Assembly: GCF_030817535.1 (NCBI RefSeq)
Contig: NZ_JAUSZL010000002.1
Location: 5,828,001 to 5,892,000, forward strand
Direction of reading: 5' to 3'
Source of the DNA: Streptomyces sp. V3I8
GTDB lineage: Bacteria > Actinomycetota > Actinomycetes > Streptomycetales > Streptomycetaceae
Length of the DNA stretch: 64,000 nt
Position numbers and translations under genes: made by a program
Shown here: positions 8,391-28,570 of the stretch, one piece after another
Layout of the letters: every line of letters begins with the position of its first letter
How positions within the stretch are numbered: position 1 is the stretch's first letter
Notes under the pieces: generated by a model
Seen by the model: the letters and a program-made list of their open reading frames with translations, nothing else
Database searches by the model: none
What the model was told of the DNA's origin: nothing

Positions 8391-8462
8391 CGGGGCCGTG
8401 GCCGCGTCCCTGACGGCCCCGCGCCCCTCCCGACGGTCTTCGCGCCTCTCCCGGCGGTCCCT

Positions 8463-8729
8463 CTACGCGCCCTCCTTCAGGACCCTCGTGATCAGTTTCC
8501 GCTGCTCCTCCGTCAGGTGCGGGTCCGTGCAGTAGGCCGTCCTTCCGTCGACCGTGATCTCGTAGCTGAAGCCGTCCGGGACGCCCATGGGGGGCGTGCC
8601 CCGGCCGGCGGCGACCGCCCGCTCGGCCAGGGCGTGCCATTCCTGGGCGTCGGGGCGGCCCGAGGTGTCGATCTCGGCGTGCCGCCCGATGCCCGCGAAG
8701 CCGCCTGTGCGGCTCACCTGAATACGCAT
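8463..8729 (-). CDS. Emfourin-like inhibitor of M4 metalloprotease
   Basis: 88 residues, starting MRIQVSRTGGFAGIGRHAEID, with FSYEITVDGRTAYCTDPHLT near the C-terminal half. This pattern (short beta-rich protein, FxYxIxVDG and a later PxLTxEQRxLI) resembles emfourin, the proteinaceous inhibitor encoded beside protealysin-like proteases in Serratia and found in actinobacteria. It lies 33 bases downstream of the M4 protease gene on the same strand, so the two are probably co-transcribed. No signal peptide, so it acts in the cytoplasm. The assignment rests on sequence pattern and neighbourhood, not on a search. Confidence 0.8.
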   Translation of the reverse strand: MRIQVSRTGGFAGIGRHAEIDTSGRPDAQEWHALAERAVAAGRGTPPMGVPDGFSYEITVDGRTAYCTDPHLTEEQRKLITRVLKEGA

Positions 8730-8762
8730 GGGTCCTTGTCTAGTACGGAACCGGCGCTGCGG

Positions 8763-9833
8763 TCACCGGGTCGGCACCTTCACCTGTTCCCAGGCCTTCG
8801 TGACGGCCTGGAGTTCCTCGCCCTCGCCGTACGAGGTGCGGGCCTGCGCCAGGGTGAGCGCCGCGAAGTCCGTGAAACTCGCCTCCGAGCCCAGCTCGCC
8901 GCCGGTCAGCACGTCGTACCAGATCTGCCCGGCCCGCTCCCAGGCGTGCCCGGCGAGCGCGCTCGCGGCCAGGTAGAAGGCGTGGTTGGGGATGCCGGAG
9001 TTGATGTGCACGCCGCCGTTGTCGCGGCCGGTGCGGACGTAGTCGTCCATCGTTGCGGGCTGCGGGTCCTTGCCGAGCACGTCGTCGTCGTACGCCGTCC
9101 CGGGGGCCTTCATCGACCGCAGGGCCGTGCCCGTGACGCTCGGGGCGAGCAGGCCCGCGCCGATCAGCCAGTCGGCGTCGGCGGCGGTCTGGCCCAGCGT
9201 GTACTGCTTGATGAGCGAGCCGAAGACGTCCGAGAAGTGCTCGTTGAGAGCGCCCGGCTGGCCGAAGTAGGTGAGGTTCGCCGTGTACTGGGTGACGCCG
9301 TGCGCGAGTTCGTGGCCGATGACGTCGACCGGGATCGTGAAGTCGAGGAAGATCTCGCCGTCACCGTCGCCGAACACCATCTGCTCGCCGTTCCAGAAGG
9401 CGTTGTTGTAGTCCTCGCCGAAGTGGACGGTGGCGTTCAGCGGCAGGCCCTCGCCGTTGACCGAGTTGCGGTGGTACGTCTTCGAGAACAGGTCGAAGGT
9501 GGCGCCCAGGCCGGCGTACGCACGGTTGACGGTGGCGTCCTTGCCGGGCCTGTCGCCCTCGCCGCGGACCTTCCGGCCGGGGAGGTCCTGCTTGTGCCGT
9601 GCGTCGTGGATCGTGCGGGTGGGCCTGTCCTCGGCGGCGCCGGCGGGCGGGGCCAGGGCGGGGGCGCCCAGCACGGTGGTCAGCCGGCGGCTGGTGCGCT
9701 CGTAGGCGTCCTGCTGGAGGGTGCGGCGCGCCTTGGCGGCGATCGCCGGGTTCTGCGCCCGGGCCAGGGTGTCCAGGACGTGGGGCGGGACGATGGTGCA
9801 GAAGACGGGCTCGAAGCCCCCGTGTGTCGTCAT
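8763..9833 (-). CDS. Protealysin-like M4 zinc metalloprotease
   Basis: 356 residues. The active site HELAH is at 174-178, with the third zinc ligand Glu198 in GALNEHFSDVFG, and NSGIPNHAFY supplies the later M4 motif. The N-terminal ~100 residues are a short propeptide with PPHVL near 16-20, the equivalent of the PPYML element of protealysin precursors. There is no signal peptide, unlike secreted thermolysins. An ATG at 9845, four bases after GGAG, is an alternative start that adds four residues. The emfourin-like inhibitor gene follows directly. Confidence 0.92.
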   Translation of the reverse strand: MTTHGGFEPVFCTIVPPHVLDTLARAQNPAIAAKARRTLQQDAYERTSRRLTTVLGAPALAPPAGAAEDRPTRTIHDARHKQDLPGRKVRGEGDRPGKDATVNRAYAGLGATFDLFSKTYHRNSVNGEGLPLNATVHFGEDYNNAFWNGEQMVFGDGDGEIFLDFTIPVDVIGHELAHGVTQYTANLTYFGQPGALNEHFSDVFGSLIKQYTLGQTAADADWLIGAGLLAPSVTGTALRSMKAPGTAYDDDVLGKDPQPATMDDYVRTGRDNGGVHINSGIPNHAFYLAASALAGHAWERAGQIWYDVLTGGELGSEASFTDFAALTLAQARTSYGEGEELQAVTKAWEQVKVPTR

Positions 9834-19729: not shown

Positions 19730-19951
19730 TTACTGCGACCCGGAGTCGGCCCCGGAGTCGGCCCCGGACTCGGAGGCGGAGTCGGAGTCGGACGTGCCGG
19801 TCCCGGTCGGTTCCTCGGCCGGGCTCCGGGGCGCGTCGGCCGGCCGGGCCGTGGCCGCCGTCGCGTGCTGCGCGGTCTCCAGGGCGTGCAGGCGGCGTCT
19901 GATGTCGCGGAGCTCGGTGAGGAGGGTGTCGGGGCGGTTGATCCTGGTCAC
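19730..19951 (-). CDS. Small coiled-coil protein at the end of the tail module
   Basis: 73 residues. The N-terminal half (MTRINRPDTLLTELRDIRRR and on to about residue 30) is a heptad-like helix that should form a short coiled coil. The C-terminal half is Ser/Asp/Gly-rich and disordered (repeated ESGADSGADSG). Proteins of this shape often follow tail fibre genes in actinophages. It is the last gene of the tail operon. Its role is not known. Confidence 0.7.
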   Translation of the reverse strand: MTRINRPDTLLTELRDIRRRLHALETAQHATAATARPADAPRSPAEEPTGTGTSDSDSASESGADSGADSGSQ

Positions 19952-19967
19952 GGGGTGCTCCTTCGGT

Positions 19968-21095
19968 TCATGGGGTACTGGGGGCGGGTACGACGGTCAG
20001 CTGGACCTGCTCCTCGCCCGCGTCGTTGCCCGGAGTGACCTCGATCCCGGTGATGCGTACGCCGAACCGGGTGCCCTCGGGAAAGAACATGTCCTTGATG
20101 ACGACGAGGGCGTCGTCGCCGACCTGGTAGGAGCCGAGTACGGGTTCCAGGTCGGCGCGCACGGTCAGCTCGGGCAGGACGACGGGGGCCGAGACGGCGG
20201 CCAGGGCCGACCGGGCCTGGGAGCGCAGGAGGGCCGCGTCGGTGAGATGGACGTAACTGACCTCGGTCTCGGTGAGCGGGCGCCCGGTGGAGGGGTCCTC
20301 GACGACCGCGACGAGCTGGCTGCCCTCGCCCTGTTCCCCCAGGGCGAAGACCCGGCTCGCGGTGGAGGCGCCGTCGGCCGGCCAGGTGTAGCCGATGAGG
20401 TTGGCGCCGTACTCCCACACGTGCGGGGTGCCCTGCTGGCCGAGGTGCGGGGTGCCGACGCGGAGTCTGCGTACGGGACGGCCGTCGCTGCCGTACGCCA
20501 TGTCGAAGACGAAGTCGGGGCCGTCCTCCAGACTGGCCAGTTCGCGCAGTGCCTCGCCGGTGCTCCTGAGGTCGCTGCCGGGGTACACCAGGGTGCGGGT
20601 GATGCCGGACGGGGCCGTGGACTCGGGGCGTATCCGGATGTCGCCGCCGGGATGCGCCTGGGCGATGGCGACGAGGTCGCGGGCGATGTCGCTCTGGTCG
20701 CGGTCGGTGAAGGGGACGGTGACGGAGGCCAGGTCGGGGGCGGCGGGATCGAAGTCGGCGGGCAGGACGCGGCGGTGGTCGAAGTAGGACAGGAATCCGG
20801 CCGCCCCGATCTCCAGGTGCTGGTCGGCGGAGGTGTACTTGAGGGTCCACACCACCCCGCCCCACACGAGCACGCCGTCCCGTTCGACGTAGAGGGCGGC
20901 GCGGCCGGGCTCGGTGAGTTCACGGGGGCGGTGGACGGTGACCCGCGGATCCCCCAGGGCCAACCGGGCGCGGAACTCACCGGCTTCGTTGAGCTCGGTG
21001 CTGAACGTGGCGTCGTACAAAGGGAGTTCGTCGGTGACGGCGCCGGTGGCGAGGTCGGCCGTGTAGTAGGTGTAGCGGGTCGGGGCGCGGGTCAT
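19968..21095 (-). CDS. Phage minor tail protein, Gp37-like
   Basis: 375 residues. The N-terminal part (TYYTADLATGAVTDELPLYD, then RVTVHRPRELTEPGRAALYV) and the YEYG-like HVWEYGANLIGYTW segment resemble the Siphoviridae Gp37-like tail proteins, related in position and likely fold to tail-associated proteins under the tube tip. There is no peptidase or lysozyme domain. Its ATG overlaps the fibre gene stop (ATGA). The family name is by pattern recognition only. Confidence 0.68.
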   Translation of the reverse strand: MTRAPTRYTYYTADLATGAVTDELPLYDATFSTELNEAGEFRARLALGDPRVTVHRPRELTEPGRAALYVERDGVLVWGGVVWTLKYTSADQHLEIGAAGFLSYFDHRRVLPADFDPAAPDLASVTVPFTDRDQSDIARDLVAIAQAHPGGDIRIRPESTAPSGITRTLVYPGSDLRSTGEALRELASLEDGPDFVFDMAYGSDGRPVRRLRVGTPHLGQQGTPHVWEYGANLIGYTWPADGASTASRVFALGEQGEGSQLVAVVEDPSTGRPLTETEVSYVHLTDAALLRSQARSALAAVSAPVVLPELTVRADLEPVLGSYQVGDDALVVIKDMFFPEGTRFGVRITGIEVTPGNDAGEEQVQLTVVPAPSTP

Positions 21096-22096
21096 CAGCC
21101 GACCAGCCAATTGGTGTCGAGGTAGACTATTTGGTTGACGGGGAGCGGGATGTCCTGGGGGAACACCGCCACGGCTCCGTTGGTGCGGAGCATGCATTCC
21201 AGGCCCCGGGTCACGCCGCCCAGCGCGGTGTACCAGTGGTGCCCCATCACCGGACGGAAGCCCGCCGGGACGTTGACGACGACGGCGCCGTTGGTCGGGA
21301 CGGCGACCGAGGTCCGGATGGCGCCCCGCAGGTGGACGACGGATCCGATCCGGCGGACCCCCGGTGTCTCGTTGTTGTACACGGCCCAGTTGGCGAGCAG
21401 GGTGACGGGAGCCCAGCCGGTGTCGTCGTTGACCGCCTGCCAGCCCACCGAACTGTCGTACCACTCCAGGTGGTTGGTGTCCCAGCGGTGGATGTACATC
21501 CCGGAGTAGGGGTACGTGGGCCGGCCGCTCTCGCCCGAGACCCGCAGGATGCCGCCGGCCGCGGCGACCCAGGGGCGCAGGTCGTCGATGTCGGCGGCGG
21601 CGACGGACGAGGCGTTCCTCGCGACCCTGATCCGGGCGAGCGGGACGAGGTCGCCGCTCACCGCCGGATCGGTGGGGGTGGCGGCGGCGGTTCCCTTGAC
21701 GAGCTCGACCGTCATGGCGGTCGTGGCGTCGCCGTACTGCGCGTCGCGCTGCCGGGCGACGACGAGGTCGTTGCGCGGGTTGGCGGTGTCGGCGGGGTTC
21801 GTGCCGAGGACGTCGAGGGTCTTCTGCTGGCCGAGGGTGACGAGGTAGGCGCCGGCCGCACTGGCCCGGGTCCCCTGGATCACGCCCTGGAACGGAGTGA
21901 CGGTGACCTTGCCGGAGACGGTGGCGGTGGCCTGGACCCGGCCGGGGTCCCCGGTGGCCGGCCGGAGGCCGCTGCGGGCCTGGACCGGGCCGGCCCCGGG
22001 CGCGGCGAGCGCGCCGGTGGCGAGCCGGGCGTCCTCGGCGTCGACGAACCCGCCGGAGACCCAGCCGGAGTCGCGTTCTGGAGTGGGCGTGCTCAT
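21095..22096 (-). CDS. Phage tail fibre/receptor-binding-like protein (copy 2)
   Basis: 333 residues. The N-terminal ~190 are shared with the next protein upstream: RDSGWVSGGFVDAEDARLAT, VTPFQGVIQGTRASAAGAYL, QKTLDVL, DIDDLR. The C-terminal ~140 differ and contain RIGSVVHLRGAI, VPAGFRP and a beta-rich end, typical of a receptor-binding head domain. The two proteins look like a tandem duplication with exchanged C-termini. Translation of the next gene is coupled through ATGA. Confidence 0.75.
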   Translation of the reverse strand: MSTPTPERDSGWVSGGFVDAEDARLATGALAAPGAGPVQARSGLRPATGDPGRVQATATVSGKVTVTPFQGVIQGTRASAAGAYLVTLGQQKTLDVLGTNPADTANPRNDLVVARQRDAQYGDATTAMTVELVKGTAAATPTDPAVSGDLVPLARIRVARNASSVAAADIDDLRPWVAAAGGILRVSGESGRPTYPYSGMYIHRWDTNHLEWYDSSVGWQAVNDDTGWAPVTLLANWAVYNNETPGVRRIGSVVHLRGAIRTSVAVPTNGAVVVNVPAGFRPVMGHHWYTALGGVTRGLECMLRTNGAVAVFPQDIPLPVNQIVYLDTNWLVG

Positions 22097-22121
22097 GAGA
22101 ATGCCTCTTCCGGTCGGGGTG

Positions 22122-23204
22122 TCACGGAACGGGGAGGGCCAGCACGCGCAGGCCGGTGTAGTGCGCGGCGGGCGAGAACACGGCCGCGGTACCGGTCGTC
22201 ATGCCGCCGCCCCGGGCGACGTACTGCGTCAGCACCAGCTGCGTGGCCGCGGGGAGCAGCCGGTGGCCGCTGGCCACGCTGGTGGTGATCCCCGTGGGAC
22301 CGCCGTGGAAGCAGGCCAGGGCCGTGGCCGTGCCGTCCTGCTCGCGCACCACGTGGTCCCACCGCTCGTTGGGACCCGAGGTCTGCGCGGTCAGCTGCGC
22401 CGTCACCAGGAGCATCCGGGGGTAGGGCGCCGCCGCCACGGTCACCTGGTTGAAGGTGTACCCGGTGGCTCCCGCCGATCCGTTGGTCAGCGGCCAGCCC
22501 GCGTCGGCCGGGCCGAAGAACTGGAGCGCGCCCGTGGCCGCCGGACGCCAGGCGGTGCCGGCCCGGACGAGGTCGAGCCCGGTTTCGAGGTCGTACAGCC
22601 GCTGCCCCCCGTAGCCGTCGGCAGGCAGCGACTCGTGGACCTGGAGGGGGAGCACCCCGCCCGCGGCGACCGTGGAGACCCGCAGGTCCTTGATGTCGTC
22701 CTTGGTGACGGATCCCGCGTTCGCCCGGACGGTGATCGCGGCGAGCGGAAGGTGGTCGCCGGTGACCGTGGGCGCGACCGGGGTCACCGCGGCCTTGCCC
22801 GCCACCACCCGGACGACCATGCCGTCGCTCTCGTCGCCGTACTGCCGGTCGGTCTGCTGGGCGACGACGAGGGCGATGCGCGGGTTGGAGGGGTCGGCCG
22901 GGGCCGCGGTCAGCACGTCGAGGGTCTTCTGCCGGGCGAGCGTGATCAGATACGCGCCCGCGGCGGTCGTACGGGTGCCCTGGACGACCCCCTGGAAGGG
23001 CCGGACCGTCACGTTGCGCGAGGGCGTGGACGCCGCCTCGACCTGGCCGGGACTGCCGGGGCCGGGTCTGATGCCCGTGCGGGCCGCGATCGGGTTGCCG
23101 GGGTCGGCCGCCGCCGAGGCGAGCACGCCGGTGGCGAGCCGGGCGTCCTCGGCGTCGACGACGCTGCCGGAGAGCCATCCGGAGTCGCGCTCGAAGTCAG
23201 CCAT
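22122..23204 (-). CDS. Phage tail fibre-like protein (copy 1)
   Basis: 360 residues. It shares its N-terminal half with copy 2 (RDSGWLSGSVVDAEDARLAT, VRPFQGVVQGTRTTAAGAYL, DIKDLRV). That shared region resembles baseplate or fibre attachment domains. The C-terminal ~170 residues are unrelated to copy 2 by eye, are beta-rich, and contain QFFGPADAGWPLTNGSAG. It lies right after the distal tail gene, where fibre and receptor-binding proteins usually are. Confidence 0.75.
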   Translation of the reverse strand: MADFERDSGWLSGSVVDAEDARLATGVLASAAADPGNPIAARTGIRPGPGSPGQVEAASTPSRNVTVRPFQGVVQGTRTTAAGAYLITLARQKTLDVLTAAPADPSNPRIALVVAQQTDRQYGDESDGMVVRVVAGKAAVTPVAPTVTGDHLPLAAITVRANAGSVTKDDIKDLRVSTVAAGGVLPLQVHESLPADGYGGQRLYDLETGLDLVRAGTAWRPAATGALQFFGPADAGWPLTNGSAGATGYTFNQVTVAAAPYPRMLLVTAQLTAQTSGPNERWDHVVREQDGTATALACFHGGPTGITTSVASGHRLLPAATQLVLTQYVARGGGMTTGTAAVFSPAAHYTGLRVLALPVP

Positions 23205-23244
23205 GCGGGCGTTCCTTCTGTCTGTGGGGCCGGGGGAGAGGATT

Positions 23245-24105
23245 TCAGAGCCAGGCGTCGCGCCACTCGGCGGTCAGCCGGGCGGCCGGGGTGTGGTCGC
23301 GGGCACGGAAGAGCACGGGCGTTGCGCCCGGCCGGAGCGGGAACCAGTCCGAGCCGGGCAGCAGGGTGGCGCGGCGCGAGGCGGTGCCCTGGAGCAGGAC
23401 CGAGCGCGCGTCGGTGTCGACGAGCAGGAACTCGCCGTCCTCGAGGCTCAGGTCGAAGGCCAGTTCCTCACCGGTCCCCGTGTTGCTGATCACCGGCTGG
23501 ACGCAGGGCCCGGCGATCCGCCAGACCGGCCAGGTCGGGACGGTGCCCTTGTTCTCCAGCAGCAGCCGGCCGCCGGAGGAGCCGCTGCCGAAGTCCAGCG
23601 GGAAGGTGAGCGGGAAGGCGATCCCGCCGCTGGAGGAGGGCAGCGGGCAGGCGCTGACGTTCAGTCCGTACGAGTACCGCAGCGGGTCCGGCGCCGTCAT
23701 GGTCAGGGAGAACTCGAAGGCCCCGGACCTCCGGTCGACGATCTTCGTCTCCGCGGTGAGCCGGACCAGCGCCCTGCGGGTCCGGTGCGGTTCGGTGACG
23801 ACGAGCGGCAGCAGCGTGCTCCCGTCGGCGAGTACGGCGGCCAGGCGGTCCTTGGCCGCTTCCCGTGCGGCCCGTTCGGGGGCGATGGCCATGCCTTCCA
23901 GGGTGATCACGCGGGGGCCCCGGTAGGAGGGGGCGTCGAAGGCGCCGTGCCGCTCGGGGCGGTCGGTCAGGGTGAGCCGGACCGGCGGGGTGGCGGCCCA
24001 GCCCTGCTCAGCGGTGACCCACCACTCGACCTCGTCGTCGTCGACGGTGTTGCCGGCCCAGCCGTCGACCTCGAACACCGGCTGCTGGAGCTGCCGCGCG
24101 GTCAT
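23245..24105 (-). CDS. Phage distal tail protein (Dit-like)
   Basis: 286 residues. Typical distal tail features: an early mixed beta domain with GPRVITLEGMAIAPERAAREAAKDRL, a central AFEFSLTMTAPDPLRYS motif (the conserved MxAxDP of this family) and a late galectin-like beta domain. Dit proteins form the hexameric hub that joins the tube to fibres. Its ATG overlaps the tape measure stop (ATGA), the standard siphophage order of tape measure then Dit. Confidence 0.8.
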   Translation of the reverse strand: MTARQLQQPVFEVDGWAGNTVDDDEVEWWVTAEQGWAATPPVRLTLTDRPERHGAFDAPSYRGPRVITLEGMAIAPERAAREAAKDRLAAVLADGSTLLPLVVTEPHRTRRALVRLTAETKIVDRRSGAFEFSLTMTAPDPLRYSYGLNVSACPLPSSSGGIAFPLTFPLDFGSGSSGGRLLLENKGTVPTWPVWRIAGPCVQPVISNTGTGEELAFDLSLEDGEFLLVDTDARSVLLQGTASRRATLLPGSDWFPLRPGATPVLFRARDHTPAARLTAEWRDAWL

Positions 24106-25301
24106 CGCTTGGCCGCCCAGGCGAGTTCGCGGGCGGTGATCCGGCCGATCTCGTACTCGGACTGCCCGGGGCGGGGGTGGACGTTGACGGTGACGGGGGA
24201 GGCCGCGCCGCTGCCGGCGCCGTGGCCCGCCGGCCGGGCGGCGGTACCGGCGAGGGCGTACCCGGGTCCGATCACACTGCGCGCGGTGGCGGTGGCGAGC
24301 CGTCCGGCGGCCCCCGCCACCCGGTTCCCGGCGCCCTCCATGCCGAGGGCCAGGCCTTCGCCGATGTTGCCGCCGAAGCCCATCATCACCTTGGACGGAC
24401 TGGAGATGCCGAGGATGCTGCGGATGGGGCCGGGGATGGTGTCGACGATGAACCTCTTGACGGTCTGGAGCAGGGCCGAGGCCGAGTTCCTGATGCCGTT
24501 GACGAGTCCCATGACGAGGTCACCGCCCAGGCCCGTGAGCCGGCCGGGCAGTTCGGCGAAGAAGCCCCAGATCTTCCCGGGAATCCCCCGCAGGAAATCG
24601 ACGGCAGCGTTCCACTTGTCGACGATCCAGTCCCGCACCGTTGCGACGGCCTCCTTGATCCGGTCCCAGTGCTTCACGATCGCCAGCACGGCGATCCCGA
24701 CGGGTCCGGTGAGGATGGCGACGAGCAACGGCCAGTTGGCCTTCAGCCAGTTGACGACGTTCTTCCCGGCGTCGATCAGCCAGTTGACGGCGACCGACGC
24801 CCCCTTCATGACCGTCCCCACCACCTGCCCGATCACCTTGAACGCCGCCTGCATGACGGCCTGCACGGTCTTGGACTGCATCGCCATGTCGACGAGCTTG
24901 GTGATGAGGGGCATGACGAGGGCGAGGATCGCGCCGAGGATGTTGGCCTTCATGGCGGTGTTGAGGCCGCGCTGGGCGGTGGTGGCGGTGCGCAGCCCCT
25001 GGCTGAACCGGGAGAACAGCCCGCCGCCCGACGCCGCGCTGCGCCCCGCCCGCTGGACGTCGGCGGAGGCCCGGGTGGCGGCGGTCCGCATCTGGTTGAG
25101 CCCGCCGCTCGCCTGCGTGGCGGCGCTCCGCAGCCGGCCGGTGGCGGTACCGGCCTGCGTCGCGGCGCTCCTGAGCCGGTCGACCGAACCGGCGGCACCG
25201 GTCACCGCGGTCCGCATGCGGGTGACGGCACTGCCGGTGCCGGTGGCCGCGGTGCGCATCTGGTTCAGCGCCCGGCTGACCGATACGAGTGACGTCTGCA
25301 T
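24102..25301 (-). CDS. Short phage tape measure protein
   Basis: 399 residues. The first ~115 are repeated helical units (variants of RMRTAVTGAAGSVDRLRSAA) that should form a long helix. Then come hydrophobic segments (ILGAILALVMPLITKL, LLVAILTGPVGIAVLAI) and the conserved end GISSPSKVMMGFGGNIGEGL seen in actinophage tape measures. It sits between the chaperones and Dit, as expected. At about 0.15 nm per residue it would set a tail of only ~60 nm. The start has a GGAG ten bases upstream. An ATG at 25356 in another frame overlaps the previous stop. Confidence 0.85.
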   Translation of the reverse strand: MQTSLVSVSRALNQMRTAATGTGSAVTRMRTAVTGAAGSVDRLRSAATQAGTATGRLRSAATQASGGLNQMRTAATRASADVQRAGRSAASGGGLFSRFSQGLRTATTAQRGLNTAMKANILGAILALVMPLITKLVDMAMQSKTVQAVMQAAFKVIGQVVGTVMKGASVAVNWLIDAGKNVVNWLKANWPLLVAILTGPVGIAVLAIVKHWDRIKEAVATVRDWIVDKWNAAVDFLRGIPGKIWGFFAELPGRLTGLGGDLVMGLVNGIRNSASALLQTVKRFIVDTIPGPIRSILGISSPSKVMMGFGGNIGEGLALGMEGAGNRVAGAAGRLATATARSVIGPGYALAGTAARPAGHGAGSGAASPVTVNVHPRPGQSEYEIGRITARELAWAAKR

Positions 25302-25352
25302 GAGGGATGGGCTCCGTCGCTGTCGCCGTGATGATCGTCATGAAACGAACCG

Positions 25353-26231
25353 TCATCGCCGCAGGGCCTGTTCGAGTCCGTTCATCTGGTTGCGCAGGCT
25401 CTCGATGGACCGGCTCGCACTTGTCGCGCCGCGTTCCAGGGCGCCGACCCGCTGCATACCGGTTCCGACTTCCTTGTCCAGCCTGCCGACCTGCTTGCGG
25501 CCTCTGTCGATCTCGCGGTCCAGGGCGCGGACCTTCCCGAGAGCCTCGTCGGTCCTGGTGCGCACGGCCCTGCTGCGGTCGTCCGCGCTGTGCGCGACCT
25601 GGCTCACCCTGCCGACCCTGGTGTCGAGGGTGGTGATGCGCCGGTGCAGTTGCTGGTTGTCGCCCAGGAGCTTCTGCCTGATGTTTTCGACCTTGGCCCG
25701 GAAGTCGCTGATCTCACGTCGCAGTTGCTGGTTCCCGGTCTGCTGGGTCCGGCGGATGCCGGACTCGACGGTGGTCAGGTCCTGCTTCAGGCGTGCCACC
25801 GCCCCCTTGACCGCCCGGATCTCCTTCAGGAGGTTCTCGGGCTCCTGCTCCTTGAGTTCCTTCTTCCTCCCGTCCGAGCGGAACAGGTTCTGGAGCATTG
25901 CGTCGTAGCGGTCCTGGATACCGAAGATCTTGACCGGGTCGAAGACGTTGAATTCGGCCTTGAGCCCGTTGACCGCGAGGTTGAGACCCGCGAGTTCCGA
26001 CTTGAGACCGCTGATCGGCGTCTGCGCCATCCAGGCGCGCTGGATGGCTTCTTCGGACTCCGTCCGGGCCTTCTGGAGCTCCTGGACCGTGGTCCGCAGA
26101 CCTGCGAAGTGGGAGTCGACGGAGGTTCTGAGGAGGTCGACCCGGTTGTCGACGGCATGGGTGAAGAGCTGTGATCCGACGAATTCAGTGACCCAGCCGG
26201 GGATTTTGTTTTCCGGAGGTGGAGTCGCCAT
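25353..26231 (-). CDS. Long coiled-coil protein of the tail module
   Basis: 292 residues. The N-terminal ~60 are globular (IPGWVTEFVGSQLFTHAVDN). From about residue 95 to the end nearly all of it is charged heptad sequence, for example LRREISDFRAKVENIRQKLL and RKQVGRLDKEVGTGMQRV, so it should form a long coiled coil. It lies between the chaperones and the tape measure, where phages usually have nothing, and could be a second tape-measure-like or scaffold protein. No family name is claimed. GGAGG precedes the ATG. Confidence 0.78.
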   Translation of the reverse strand: MATPPPENKIPGWVTEFVGSQLFTHAVDNRVDLLRTSVDSHFAGLRTTVQELQKARTESEEAIQRAWMAQTPISGLKSELAGLNLAVNGLKAEFNVFDPVKIFGIQDRYDAMLQNLFRSDGRKKELKEQEPENLLKEIRAVKGAVARLKQDLTTVESGIRRTQQTGNQQLRREISDFRAKVENIRQKLLGDNQQLHRRITTLDTRVGRVSQVAHSADDRSRAVRTRTDEALGKVRALDREIDRGRKQVGRLDKEVGTGMQRVGALERGATSASRSIESLRNQMNGLEQALRR

Positions 26232-26244
26232 CGGTGTCCTGTCA

Positions 26245-26670
26245 TCACGGGGAACTGAGGAACGCCAGAATCTCGGTCGGGCTCGCGGCGGGGCGGGGCG
26301 TGCCGGCCGCCGCCTCGGCCTCCGGTCCGGTCCGGGCCGGACGGCCGTCCGGTCGCGGCAGTGGGTCCGGGTAGGGCGCCGGCGCCGTGTCCTCGTCCCG
26401 GTTGACCGTCGCGAACATCCAGTTGGCGACGGCCAGGTGGTCGACGACCGCGGCGAGGAGGTGGTCGGTGACCGTCCAGTCCGCCTGCTCGCCGTGGACC
26501 GCCCGGGCGAAGGACGAGTCGGCGGGAAGGTGTTCGGTCAGGACACGCAGGCGGCGGGAGGAGAGGCGGCCCCGGTACCAGTCGAGGAGGTCGACCCCGT
26601 AGTGGCGGAGCAGATCCGCCTCCAGCGCCTCGGCGTGCTCCTCGACCAGCGCACCGAGGCTCAGCCTTCC
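26245..26670 (-). CDS. Tail assembly chaperone GT extension (read by -1 frameshift)
   Basis: An open frame of 141 codons with no ATG or GTG start with a Shine-Dalgarno near its beginning, in the -1 frame relative to the upstream 96-residue protein. It encodes VEEHAEALEADLLRHYGVDL, DWYRGRLSSRRLRVLTEHLP and WTVTDHLLAAVVDHLAVANW, the pattern of actinophage second tail assembly chaperones. After a -1 slip at GGGGGAA the fused product would have 235 residues. It is not a standard start-to-stop ORF, so ORF callers will miss or mis-start it. Confidence 0.82.
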   Translation of the reverse strand, partial: GRLSLGALVEEHAEALEADLLRHYGVDLLDWYRGRLSSRRLRVLTEHLPADSSFARAVHGEQADWTVTDHLLAAVVDHLAVANWMFATVNRDEDTAPAPYPDPLPRPDGRPARTGPEAEAAAGTPRPAASPTEILAFLSSP

Positions 26671-26951
26671 CCCAGCGTCATGCCCGTCTCGCTGCCGTAG
26701 GCCTCCAGGATCGCGGAGACGTCCTGAACGCTGGTGTCGTACTTGCAGAAGCGCTCGAACTGCTCGGGACCGAGCAGCAGGGCCAGCAGCCCGTCGATAT
26801 CGTTGTCCTCCAGCGTGGCGATCTGCTTGGCGACGTTGCGCGAGAACTCGGTGGGCAGACGGAACACGTCCTCGTCCACCTCGAACTCCCAGTCCTTCCC
26901 GACGGTTTCGAGACGCTGGGCGCGGGCGGCATTGACGTTGAAACGGGCCAT
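26661..26951 (-). CDS. Tail assembly chaperone G
   Basis: 96 residues starting MARFNVNAARAQRLE, with FRLPTEFSRNVAKQIATLED, FERFCKYDTSVQDVSAILEA and the end MTLGEG. This matches the first chaperone of actinophage tail modules, which binds tape measure protein during tail assembly. The stop codon follows the slippery heptamer by three bases, so most ribosomes make this short form and a minority shift into the GT frame. Confidence 0.85.
   Translation of the reverse strand: MARFNVNAARAQRLETVGKDWEFEVDEDVFRLPTEFSRNVAKQIATLEDNDIDGLLALLLGPEQFERFCKYDTSVQDVSAILEAYGSETGMTLGEG
26667..26673 (-). promoter_or_regulatory. Probable -1 programmed ribosomal frameshift site
   Basis: On the minus strand the end of the G gene reads CTG GGG GAA GGC TGA. 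The heptamer G GGG GAA lets the P-site tRNA re-pair perfectly with GGG after a one-base backward slip, with the A-site codon becoming GGA. The GT frame is open from here to 26245. The layout is the conserved G/GT arrangement of siphophages. Confidence 0.75.
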
Positions 26952-26993
26952 GACGGGCGGCTCCTCGCGGTGGACGAACGGGCGGGCGGGTCC

Positions 26994-27569
26994 TCAGGCT
27001 GCGCTGAGGCTCGGATCCTTCATCAGGAACGTCGCCAGCGGGGCACCGTTCACCGTGGCCAGTGCCGTGAACGTGACGCCCAGTTTCACGGGCGCCGTAC
27101 GGACGAGGGAGATCTCCTCCGTCTCGGTCACCTGACCCCGGCCGACGATCAGCCGGTACGTCACGTCACCGCCGTCGGCGAACTCCAGTCCGAGCATCCG
27201 CTCGTCGAACTTCGGCTCGGCCTCCAGGTCGTACTTGTAGAGGCCGGACCCGGCCGCGGTCTCCTTGACCTGCCCGCCGCCGAAGAAGAACGGCAGGGTG
27301 TCCTCGTTCAGCTGGAGGAGCTGGAACTTGAAGCTGAGGTCGCGGTCGGAGTAGACGAACCGGGCCGCACTGACGCTCTGCCAGGTGTCCACCGGGTCCA
27401 GCTTGTCCTTCTTGGAGATCTTGATCCCGTCGGTGGTGGTGTAGCCGAGGTCCTTCCAGCCGGCTCCCCACGCGGCGCCGGTGTCGGCGGGCGGTGCGGT
27501 GGCGAGCGGGGCGATGAGCACACGGCCACTGCCCGCGACCCGGATCTCCTTGGCGTTCGTTCCGGCCAT
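26994..27569 (-). CDS. Major tail tube protein
   Basis: 191 residues from the ATG five bases after AAGGAG. Tail-tube features include the early GSGRVLIAPLATAPPAD, DGIKISKKDKLDPVDTWQSV (common in actinophage tube proteins just before the insertion loop), FKFQLLQLNEDTLPFFFGGG and a C-terminal strand pair with TEEISLVRTAPVKLGVTF. The next gene downstream is the tail chaperone, the canonical order. It would polymerise into the non-contractile tube. Confidence 0.85.
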   Translation of the reverse strand: MAGTNAKEIRVAGSGRVLIAPLATAPPADTGAAWGAGWKDLGYTTTDGIKISKKDKLDPVDTWQSVSAARFVYSDRDLSFKFQLLQLNEDTLPFFFGGGQVKETAAGSGLYKYDLEAEPKFDERMLGLEFADGGDVTYRLIVGRGQVTETEEISLVRTAPVKLGVTFTALATVNGAPLATFLMKDPSLSAA

Positions 27570-27627
27570 CACTGCTCCTTGGTTGGGAGAGGGACACGAC
27601 GTGCTGAAGTGGGTGGAGGCCGGCGGC

Positions 27628-28035
27628 TCAGGCCGGGCGGACCACCAGGCGGGTGGTCGAGACGTAACGGTTGGCGGTGGCGTGCCGGTAGTCGGGCAGC
27701 CAGCGCGGACCGTCCTCCTCGACCACGTCGACGACGGTCGCCGCGCCGTGCACGGCTCCCCGGAGCTGGAGCATCAGGGCGCGGGCGACCAGGGAGACGG
27801 TGTGGGCCACGGCCTTCGAGGGGCCGTACACCTCCAGATCGACCAGCGGGTTGTCGAGCCGCGGGTCCTCCGCCCAGGCCCCGCCGACCCGGGAGACCAG
27901 CACGGCGCGCTGCGAGCCGTCGAATCCGGCGGGCGGCTGGACGTCCACGACGACCCCCGCCAGCTCGCTCCTGTCCTTGAGGAGATCGACGACCAGCCGC
28001 TCCACGTCCGGGAAGGTGATGTACGGCTCAGTCAT
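27628..28035 (-). CDS. Tail terminator/tail completion-like protein
   Basis: 135 residues. Order and pattern (MTEPYITFPDVERLVVDLLK, then DVQPPAGFDGSQRAVLVSRV, LVDLEVYGP, VVDVVEEDGPRWLPD) fit small tail terminator or minor capsid-tail completion proteins, which cap the tube at the head end in siphophages. Such a gene always comes just before the tube protein. If no head is made here, this protein would close the tail end. Its start overlaps the end of the upstream 49-residue gene. Confidence 0.72.
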   Translation of the reverse strand: MTEPYITFPDVERLVVDLLKDRSELAGVVVDVQPPAGFDGSQRAVLVSRVGGAWAEDPRLDNPLVDLEVYGPSKAVAHTVSLVARALMLQLRGAVHGAATVVDVVEEDGPRWLPDYRHATANRYVSTTRLVVRPA

Positions 28036-28177
28036 CGCCGGACTCCGGCTCGGGGTCCGCCTCCTCCGCGGGCCGGGCGATCACCCCGAGCGCCTCTCGT
28101 GCGGTCTCGTCGCTCACCTCGACCACATCGCCGGGCTCATGCCCGTTCCACCAGTAGGTCAGCAGGATTTTCGGCAC
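28028..28177 (-). CDS. Small head-tail connector-region protein (49 aa)
   Basis: GTG at 28177 follows a strong GGGGGAGG Shine-Dalgarno. The product begins MPKILLTYWWNGHEPGDVVE and ends in an acidic tail. Small proteins with an NGHxPGDxVxV motif are common in the connector region of siphophages. Its stop lies inside the start of the terminator gene, so the two are translationally coupled. It is the first gene of the tail operon. Confidence 0.7.
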   Translation of the reverse strand: MPKILLTYWWNGHEPGDVVEVSDETAREALGVIARPAEEADPEPESGDD

Positions 28178-28570
28178 AGCACCTCCCCCGAGTGTTCGCT
28201 GTACGGCTGCCGTCGCAGCAACTACCGGAATCTCAACTTCCGTAAATATTCGGCTAGTTGACTGCTCAGAAGTGCAAAGGTAACCAATGCCCCCAGGGGG
28301 AGGCGGGTCGCTTCATGTTTCGGATGGGTAACGATTGGCCGTTCGGGGCGGGAGTCTCCGGTTGCCCGCGGGAGGCGCCGTGGCCGCACCCGTCGCCGAC
28401 CGACGCGGATCCCGGCCGGCGGCGGGACGCGGACGGCTCCCGCCGCGTACGGTTCGGCGCATGTCCGGGTGGCGCGCATCCGGCGACCCCGGAAACCCCC
28501 GGTCGCTGACGCGCTCCGCCGTCAGCGGCGGAACCGGGTCGGGGACCGCCTGGGAACCGAGGGGTGCCGG
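28178..28570. other. Intergenic region with AT-rich patch and divergent promoters
   Basis: Bases 28215-28320 are clearly less GC-rich than the surroundings and mark the upstream edge of the tail operon. On the plus strand TTGACT at 28258-28263 with TAACCA 17 bases later is a fair promoter, followed by the palindrome CCCCCAGGGGG near 28290-28300. No clear promoter for the minus-strand tail operon was found. An ORF on the plus strand through 28258-28509 has weak coding character and is not called. Confidence 0.4.

Follow-up and report, generated by a model that had tools for sequence, protein, structure and literature searches.

A maintained headless siphovirus-type tail cassette in the chromosome of Streptomyces sp. 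V3I8: a candidate F-type-tailocin-like particle

F-type tailocins (F-pyocin, Listeria monocin, rhizoviticin) are described as rare (PMC10811719), with lysis as their route of release (PMC12090994, PMC10811719). In Streptomyces, domesticated contractile phage tails (SLP, CIS-Sc) are called widespread (PMC8910223), and two further papers place the contractile system of S. coelicolor in the cytoplasm and link it to cell death (PMC10066040, PMC12237407). The literature matches listed in our searches include no non-contractile tail particle from Streptomyces, turning up contractile systems, phages, and unrelated topics instead; subscription journals and bioRxiv lie mostly outside that coverage, and novelty is thus provisional. 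Here we analyze 64,000 nucleotides of Streptomyces sp. V3I8 (contig NZ_JAUSZL010000002.1, positions 5,828,001 to 5,892,000; hereafter the window), which contain an 8.4-kb cassette of siphovirus-type tail genes. Judged by its sequence and that of its relatives, it is almost certainly a headless tail cassette that is being maintained, a siphovirus tail operon domesticated in the host chromosome. Its intact frames, signs of purifying selection, occurrence in other species, surroundings in which no head genes were found, and two predicted folds of receptor-binding type lead us to this reading.

The cassette comprises 12 frames, all on the minus strand, running from 28177 down to 19730 of the window. 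Their translations contain no internal stops, and codon-position GC agrees with coding on that strand. Profile searches against PHROG and Pfam identify a terminator, a tube protein, G and GT chaperones, a coiled-coil protein, a tape measure, a distal tail protein (Dit), two receptor-binding-type proteins, and a Gp37-like hub. The original prediction, made from the letters alone, of 12 intact same-strand genes in siphophage order is thus borne out to its exact limits. Its statement that many genes are joined by ATGA overlaps was too strong: one pair overlaps by 4 bases (g7/g8), one by 8, and one by 1, in addition to the G/GT overlap. The frames, in order of transcription, are as follows (type A denotes loci of the window's own type).

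28028..28177, minus strand: g1, 49 amino acids, probable remnant of a head-tail joining region
27628..28035, minus strand: g2, tail terminator, 135 amino acids (phrog_123, 5.5e-20)
26994..27569, minus strand: g3, tail tube protein, 191 amino acids (PF25681, 1e-58; phrog_117, 7.5e-39)
26661..26951, minus strand: g4, tail assembly chaperone G, 96 amino acids, with a slippery site at its end (phrog_10551, 1.8e-18)
26245..26664, minus strand: g5, GT extension, predicted to be read by -1 frameshift; upstream limit approximate (phrog_5813, 1.4e-28)
25353..26231, minus strand: g6, hypervariable coiled-coil protein, 292 amino acids; mostly coiled-coil-type matches
24102..25301, minus strand: g7, short tape measure protein, 399 amino acids, with two hydrophobic segments (phrog_58, 9.4e-21)
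23245..24105, minus strand: g8, distal tail protein (Dit), 286 amino acids (phrog_5577, 6.4e-53; PF22768, 1.3e-11)
22122..23204, minus strand: g9, baseplate protein with a predicted TNF/C1q-like head domain (residues ~225-360)
21095..22096, minus strand: g10, receptor-binding-type protein with a predicted lactophage-like head domain (residues ~223-333)
19968..21095, minus strand: g11, Gp37-like baseplate hub, 375 amino acids (phrog_1885, 1.3e-67, positions 12-377 of 1033)
19730..19951, minus strand: g12, small charged protein, 73 amino acids, present in 11 of 11 type A genomes examined (window and L036 counted)

Neither g1 nor g12 matches Pfam or PHROG; in prophage L098, a homolog of g1 (42% identity) stands between a connector gene and the terminator gene. 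Two module proteins are assigned to phrog_3398. The predicted structures of g9 and g10 carry two different head folds atop a common N-terminal baseplate region, and by these folds both are putative tip proteins of the receptor-binding type, as expected of an F-type tailocin tip.

Within positions 9001-44000 of the window, queries with the head markers of four actinophages, the integrases of two of these phages, and the amidase and holin-like proteins of type B all give no match (tblastn, E ≤ 1e-5), in agreement with the predicted lack of terminase, portal, capsid, holin, endolysin, and integrase near the block. The head, packaging, and integration genes that accompany the tail of an intact prophage are not found at the module, nor are the capsid, portal, and terminase of a gene transfer agent found linked to it, and PHROG and Pfam place no module protein in a sheath family such as a contractile injection system would have. 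What the window and the type A loci do contain, intact non-contractile siphovirus-type tail genes in a cluster free of capsid, portal, and terminase, is the arrangement of F-type tailocins. The flanks are ordinary cellular gene sets, also as predicted: Pfam identifies a family 5 solute-binding protein and permeases on one side (the neighbors tested being cellular) and a phosphatase-like protein, DUF2637, RecO, and UppS on the other. The phosphatase-like neighbor also matches phrog_17568 (1.8e-12), yet it is present in relatives that lack the module. A tRNA scan of the window found none.

Type A loci were gathered from a hub scan (eight named loci, all Streptomyces) and from searches of 150, 199, and 293 genomes. 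Leaving out the apparent duplicates L071 (of L035) and L142 (of L032) and the short contig L036, 11 complete loci are known besides the window (L031-L035, L037, L038, L069, L070, L143, and L144). Gene order is identical in all 11, and none of the type A loci mapped has a head or integrase marker beside the cassette. The detailed comparison covers the window and nine of these loci, with L036 added for g8-g12 and L143 and L144 excluded. All 10 genomes have full-length frames. Frame disruption in sister loci had been named beforehand as the observation that would count against the prediction; we looked for it and saw none in the nine loci. The tape measure has 399 amino acids in nine of the 10 genomes and 374 in the other, and in L038, where the comparison search missed g6, a 287-amino-acid frame occupies its place. 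Median ratios of nonsynonymous to synonymous substitution rates (dN/dS) are low for the core genes: 0.13 for g2 and g3, 0.19 for g4, 0.22 for g7, 0.18 for g8, and 0.27 for g11. They are 0.39 for g9, 0.50 for g10, 0.40 for g1, and 0.55 for g12; g9 and g10 thus have the highest values among the long genes except g6. With full-length frames and low dN/dS, the core genes are under purifying selection, maintained rather than debris.

INPHARED holds no relative of the tube or hub at ≥60% identity, the best among the matches listed being 33.5% (tube) and 33.8% (hub). The single IMG/VR match to the tube is at 27%, a sequence search of the PDB with the tube finds no match, and none of 30 plasmid records found with the hub reaches 60%. 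Relatives of g10 at ~50% identity occur in Actinokineospora, Kibdelosporangium, and Amycolatopsis.

The G and GT chaperones had been named correctly, and one feature must be added: the GT frame is predicted to be reached by a conserved -1 frameshift. A slippery site is present in all 41 loci in which G was found, the end of G reading GGGGGAAGGCTGAG in 28 rows and GGGGGAAGACTGAG in 13, and in every one the -1 frame continues for 126-145 codons beyond the G stop before it closes. These 41 rows include the duplicates L071 and L142, the decayed second locus of the source genome, and the truncated L089; L100 is absent from the list. In this survey, G had no match in the prophages L098 and L099.

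The tape measure was likewise identified correctly (phrog_58), with the correction that it has only 399 amino acids. Tape measures elsewhere are far longer (740-1604 amino acids in four phages, 710-1515 in five prophages), and g7 aligns to positions 691-1010 of the 1544-position phrog_58 and to comparable parts of other long tape measures. A hydrophobicity scan marks two strongly hydrophobic segments in it. Short tape-measure genes are general among headless modules, at ~270-430 amino acids each; the two of type C (a related module type, described with type B below) come to ~800 together.

The slot between the chaperones and the tape measure, fixed in position in all three types and occupied by g6 in the window, is hypervariable. 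Among nine type A genomes, mean pairwise identity of g6 is 33% (minimum 17%), versus 86%-95% for g2, g3, g4, g7, and g8. In types B and C, the slot protein is the least conserved in 123 of 124 pairs (24 loci, tape measures ≥45% identical), with median identities of 23% for the slot, 60% for the tape measure, 65% for the tube, and 81% for G. A membrane segment is likely in 12 of 26 slot loci scanned in the B/C range and in none of nine of type A. The protein collection holds 14 matches to g6, itself included, the best other being 43% identical over the whole length. In PADLOC, g6 has only weak matches, of coiled-coil type, and g7 a single marginal one; 10 slot proteins match no Pfam family at 0.001. 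When the ends of 28 slot proteins are compared, most type A members have a C-terminal helix of similar form, with no motif common to all. The slot protein g6 may be one half, evolving fast, of a tape measure that has split, or it may be a lumen protein that can be swapped, two readings that these data do not separate. An extension of the latter, which we regard as unlikely, would make the slot gene a swappable tube passenger: a polymorphic lumen protein and candidate pore former or effector that sets the effect on the target, so that specificity would lie in the cargo and not in the fibers.

The tube g3 matches 32 of 199 sampled genomes at E ≤ 1e-20, source genome included. We fetched 32 regions around the tube matches from the other 31 genomes and mapped markers on them: three are type A, 11 type B, and 14 type C, two are broken or truncated (L089 and L100), and two are prophages with head genes (L098 and L099). 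The other 30 have no head marker, although L079 starts at a contig edge, leaving its upstream side outside view. The marker test is able to detect head genes, since both prophages were scored as such, as were L145 and L146, which were fetched for the hub alone (two of seven such matches at 34%-38%) and also carry head genes. Each of the 28 headless modules (A, B, and C) spans the terminator to at least the Dit position, and headless modules are found in 29 of the 199 genomes, about one in seven.

Type B modules have in their 3' part two baseplate-position proteins and a minor-tail-like protein, with an amidase endolysin and a holin-like gene in 10 of 11. In L094 (3569-6785), the baseplate-position proteins have 281 and 794 amino acids and, unlike the remaining tail proteins, match no PHROG or Pfam family at 0.01. 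Type C has two tape-measure-like genes in 13 of 14 modules, and its Dit reaches, in L074, 58% identity to the Dit of phage Darolandstone. Of the regulator-region genes (XRE, WhiB, VEL, and MerR-like), two or more accompany 23 of the 25 B/C modules (XRE in 21, WhiB in 17, a MerR-like gene in 23; none seen in L076 and L079); L074 stops after the hub as type A does, yet retains two of them. With regulators in B and C and an endolysin in B, the layout is, to judge from gene content, that of a particle whose production is regulated and which is released. Ten of the 14 type C modules neighbor the rpsL operon. The rpoC and rpsL operons adjoin each other, and because B and C modules repeatedly adjoin one or the other, insertion may favor the region between them. 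Two side observations concern these modules. By side, L075, L076, and L100 lie next to rpoC and L077, L082-L085, L087, L088, L090, L092, and L093 next to rpsL. In L094, the opposite strand encodes a small membrane-type protein, judged by eye, in the interval from GT to the slot gene (8461-8850), and L095-L097 have opposite-strand frames at the equivalent position; this protein could be an immunity partner.

The cassette of the window is flanked by the phosphatase-like gene and the transporter gene. Five other genomes were fetched for this site and both flanking genes located in three; a flank comparison with 30 relatives (mostly partial matches) served only to find the site. In two of the three (G009 and G011), the flanking genes lie ~1.1 and 0.7 kb apart with no tail genes between them, and in G007 they are separated by ~7 kb of other genes. 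Since the site is empty in G009 and G011, and G011 has its own cassette at the polymerase site, the cassette occupies different chromosomal places; no integrase was found with it. The polymerase in question, of DnaE type, follows the cassette in 10 of 11 type A loci (absent in L037). The polymerase of L035 is only 55% identical to that of L031, and the best match to this DnaE-type polymerase in the source genome is at 30%. Alignment of eight type A upstream regions, window included, gives the following conserved elements.

28317..28335, minus strand: box 1, 140 bp before g1
beginning at 28284 and at 28241, minus strand: two further conserved boxes

With up to one mismatch, the box 1 pattern occurs once in the 9.3-Mb genome and is therefore, by that pattern, no shared regulon site. 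Compared by eye with LexA and WhiG consensus sequences, the upstream element fits neither.

The source genome has a second module (contig C2:4674025-4680475; L009/L010), some kilobases from dnaK, with XRE, WhiB, and MerR-like genes, terminator, tube, G/GT, a small coiled-coil gene, and a holin-like gene. Only a stub of its tape measure is left and the amidase frame is disrupted, and its gene content marks it as a type B relative in decay. At ~4144500-4185000 of the same contig (L163, L162, and L159) is a complete-looking siphoprophage with integration, packaging, head, and lysis genes and a tail of its own; PHROGs confirm the integrase, terminase, portal, capsid, terminator, tube, and tape measure, and the remainder comes from gene calls. 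Its capsid, portal, and terminase match phrog_267, phrog_104, and phrog_19179. Its terminator and tube belong to phrog_176 and phrog_158, versus phrog_123 and phrog_117 in the module, and its tape measure has 710 amino acids and shares broad PHROGs with g7. Genome-wide head searches had found no match to PF05065 or PF04860 and two weak partial matches to phrog_2; these were not exhaustive and missed the prophage, and a provisional statement that the genome has no head genes was overturned when it was discovered near an amidase match, its head genes falling in other PHROGs. Amidases elsewhere in the genome lie in the prophage region and beside a contractile-type cluster near 7.01 Mb. At the latter (contig C2:7001000-7011900; L158), large tail/baseplate-like genes stand beside an intact amidase, and by eye they look like a contractile injection cluster.

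What the module does is less certain than that it is kept. We lean toward a released F-type-tailocin-like bacteriocin particle, which on present evidence is somewhat more probable than its competitors combined; we infer killing by analogy. Transcription would start from one dedicated promoter region, and G and frameshifted GT would load tube subunits around g7 and probably also around the coiled-coil g6. The terminator g2 would cap the tube at the would-be head junction, and Dit, the hub, g9, and g10 would build the tip. Tail tubes measure 0.15 nm per tape-measure residue, which predicts a tube of ~60 nm, or up to ~100 nm with g6 also in the lumen. The particle would stay in the cytoplasm until lysis, by developmental death or by lysis enzymes acting in trans, the latter proposed because the cassette has none. 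Released particles would bind surface glycans of related actinomycetes through g9/g10, and g7/g6 would enter the target membrane and depolarize it.

Several observations weigh against such a bacteriocin. The original suggestion of an F-type tailocin or another domesticated tail holds strongly for a domesticated, headless, non-contractile tail, whereas the linked lysis cassette of F-type tailocins is missing: no lysis genes and no regulator gene are found beside the cassette in the window's type, which leaves release and induction unexplained. Toward the linked regulator or SOS-type induction of F-type tailocins, what is seen here is the conserved upstream element. The most variable gene is g6 and not a fiber as expected for a tailocin, the receptor-binding-type proteins being only moderately diversified. 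The head of the complete-looking prophage could also in principle interact with the module, though that prophage has its own tail. The same lack of lysis genes, with the precedent of the cytoplasmic, death-linked contractile system of S. coelicolor (PMC10066040, PMC12237407), favors the main rival, an intracellular tail particle that serves the producer itself, in development, in the response to stress, or in programmed death. We think this doubtful, although it is the strongest competitor: two proteins with predicted surface-binding head folds are kept and show the elevated dN/dS noted above, and the related type B modules retain an endolysin.

Two further explanations deny the module a particle of its own. 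That it is a decaying prophage remnant, its tail genes left by chance, is suggested by its clear phage ancestry, by the resemblance of g1 to a head-tail junction leftover, and by decayed or truncated relatives (the second locus of the source genome, L089, and L100); but the full-length frames of 10 type A genomes and their low dN/dS, the different chromosomal sites, the conserved frameshift site, and the conserved upstream element largely refute it, and we hold it improbable, as the original prediction had argued from frames alone. Slightly less credible still is a tail donor joined to the heads of a helper prophage or of a gene-transfer-agent-like unit elsewhere in the genome. The cassette does retain a terminator and a junction-region remnant, and the prophage near 4.144-4.185 Mb supplies the capsid and terminase that, found elsewhere, might complete a phage; these genes exist, but they do not complete the module because the prophage carries its own tail, with terminator and tube in other PHROGs and a 710-amino-acid tape measure of its own, broad PHROGs shared with g7 notwithstanding. 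Nor does any type A locus mapped show a head or integrase marker next to its cassette.

If modules of this family do make particles, about one-seventh of the Streptomyces genomes sampled (29 of 199) would have, in addition to the richest antibiotic repertoire known, an uncharacterized device that serves either as a protein weapon or in development. The slot and the short tape measures raise a more general question, namely, whether killing would proceed by membrane insertion of tape-measure-like proteins alone or by delivery of a variable cargo.

Among the closest systems are types B and C, with which the window's module shares a homologous terminator and tube, G/GT with the frameshift site, tape-measure genes of ~270-430 amino acids, and the hypervariable slot; these differ in having regulator-region genes in most cases, an endolysin in 10 of 11 type B modules, different baseplates, and two tape-measure-like genes in 13 of 14 type C modules. 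The Streptomyces siphophages mu1/6, OnionKnight, Darolandstone, and Kromp have a similar order of terminator, tube, chaperones, tape measure, Dit, minor tail, and hub, with hub identities of 29.5%-33.8% (mu1/6, OnionKnight, and Darolandstone) and a tube identity of 33.5% (Kromp), the best among the matches listed. Unlike the module, they encode heads, integrases, and lysis proteins, and their tape measures are 740-1604 amino acids long. Contractile injection systems of Streptomyces are likewise domesticated phage tails but are contractile, and no module protein matches a sheath family; the source genome seems to have such a cluster separately, near C2:7.00-7.01 Mb. F-type tailocins are known as killing particles, and the window's module is a candidate for one; its type differs from them in that no lysis or regulatory genes are found beside the cassette, in its short tape measure after a hypervariable coiled-coil gene, and in its descent from an actinophage-type tail. 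With them it shares a chromosomal, headless, siphovirus-type tail cluster with a predicted receptor-binding tip, and the F-type tailocin is its best functional analogy.

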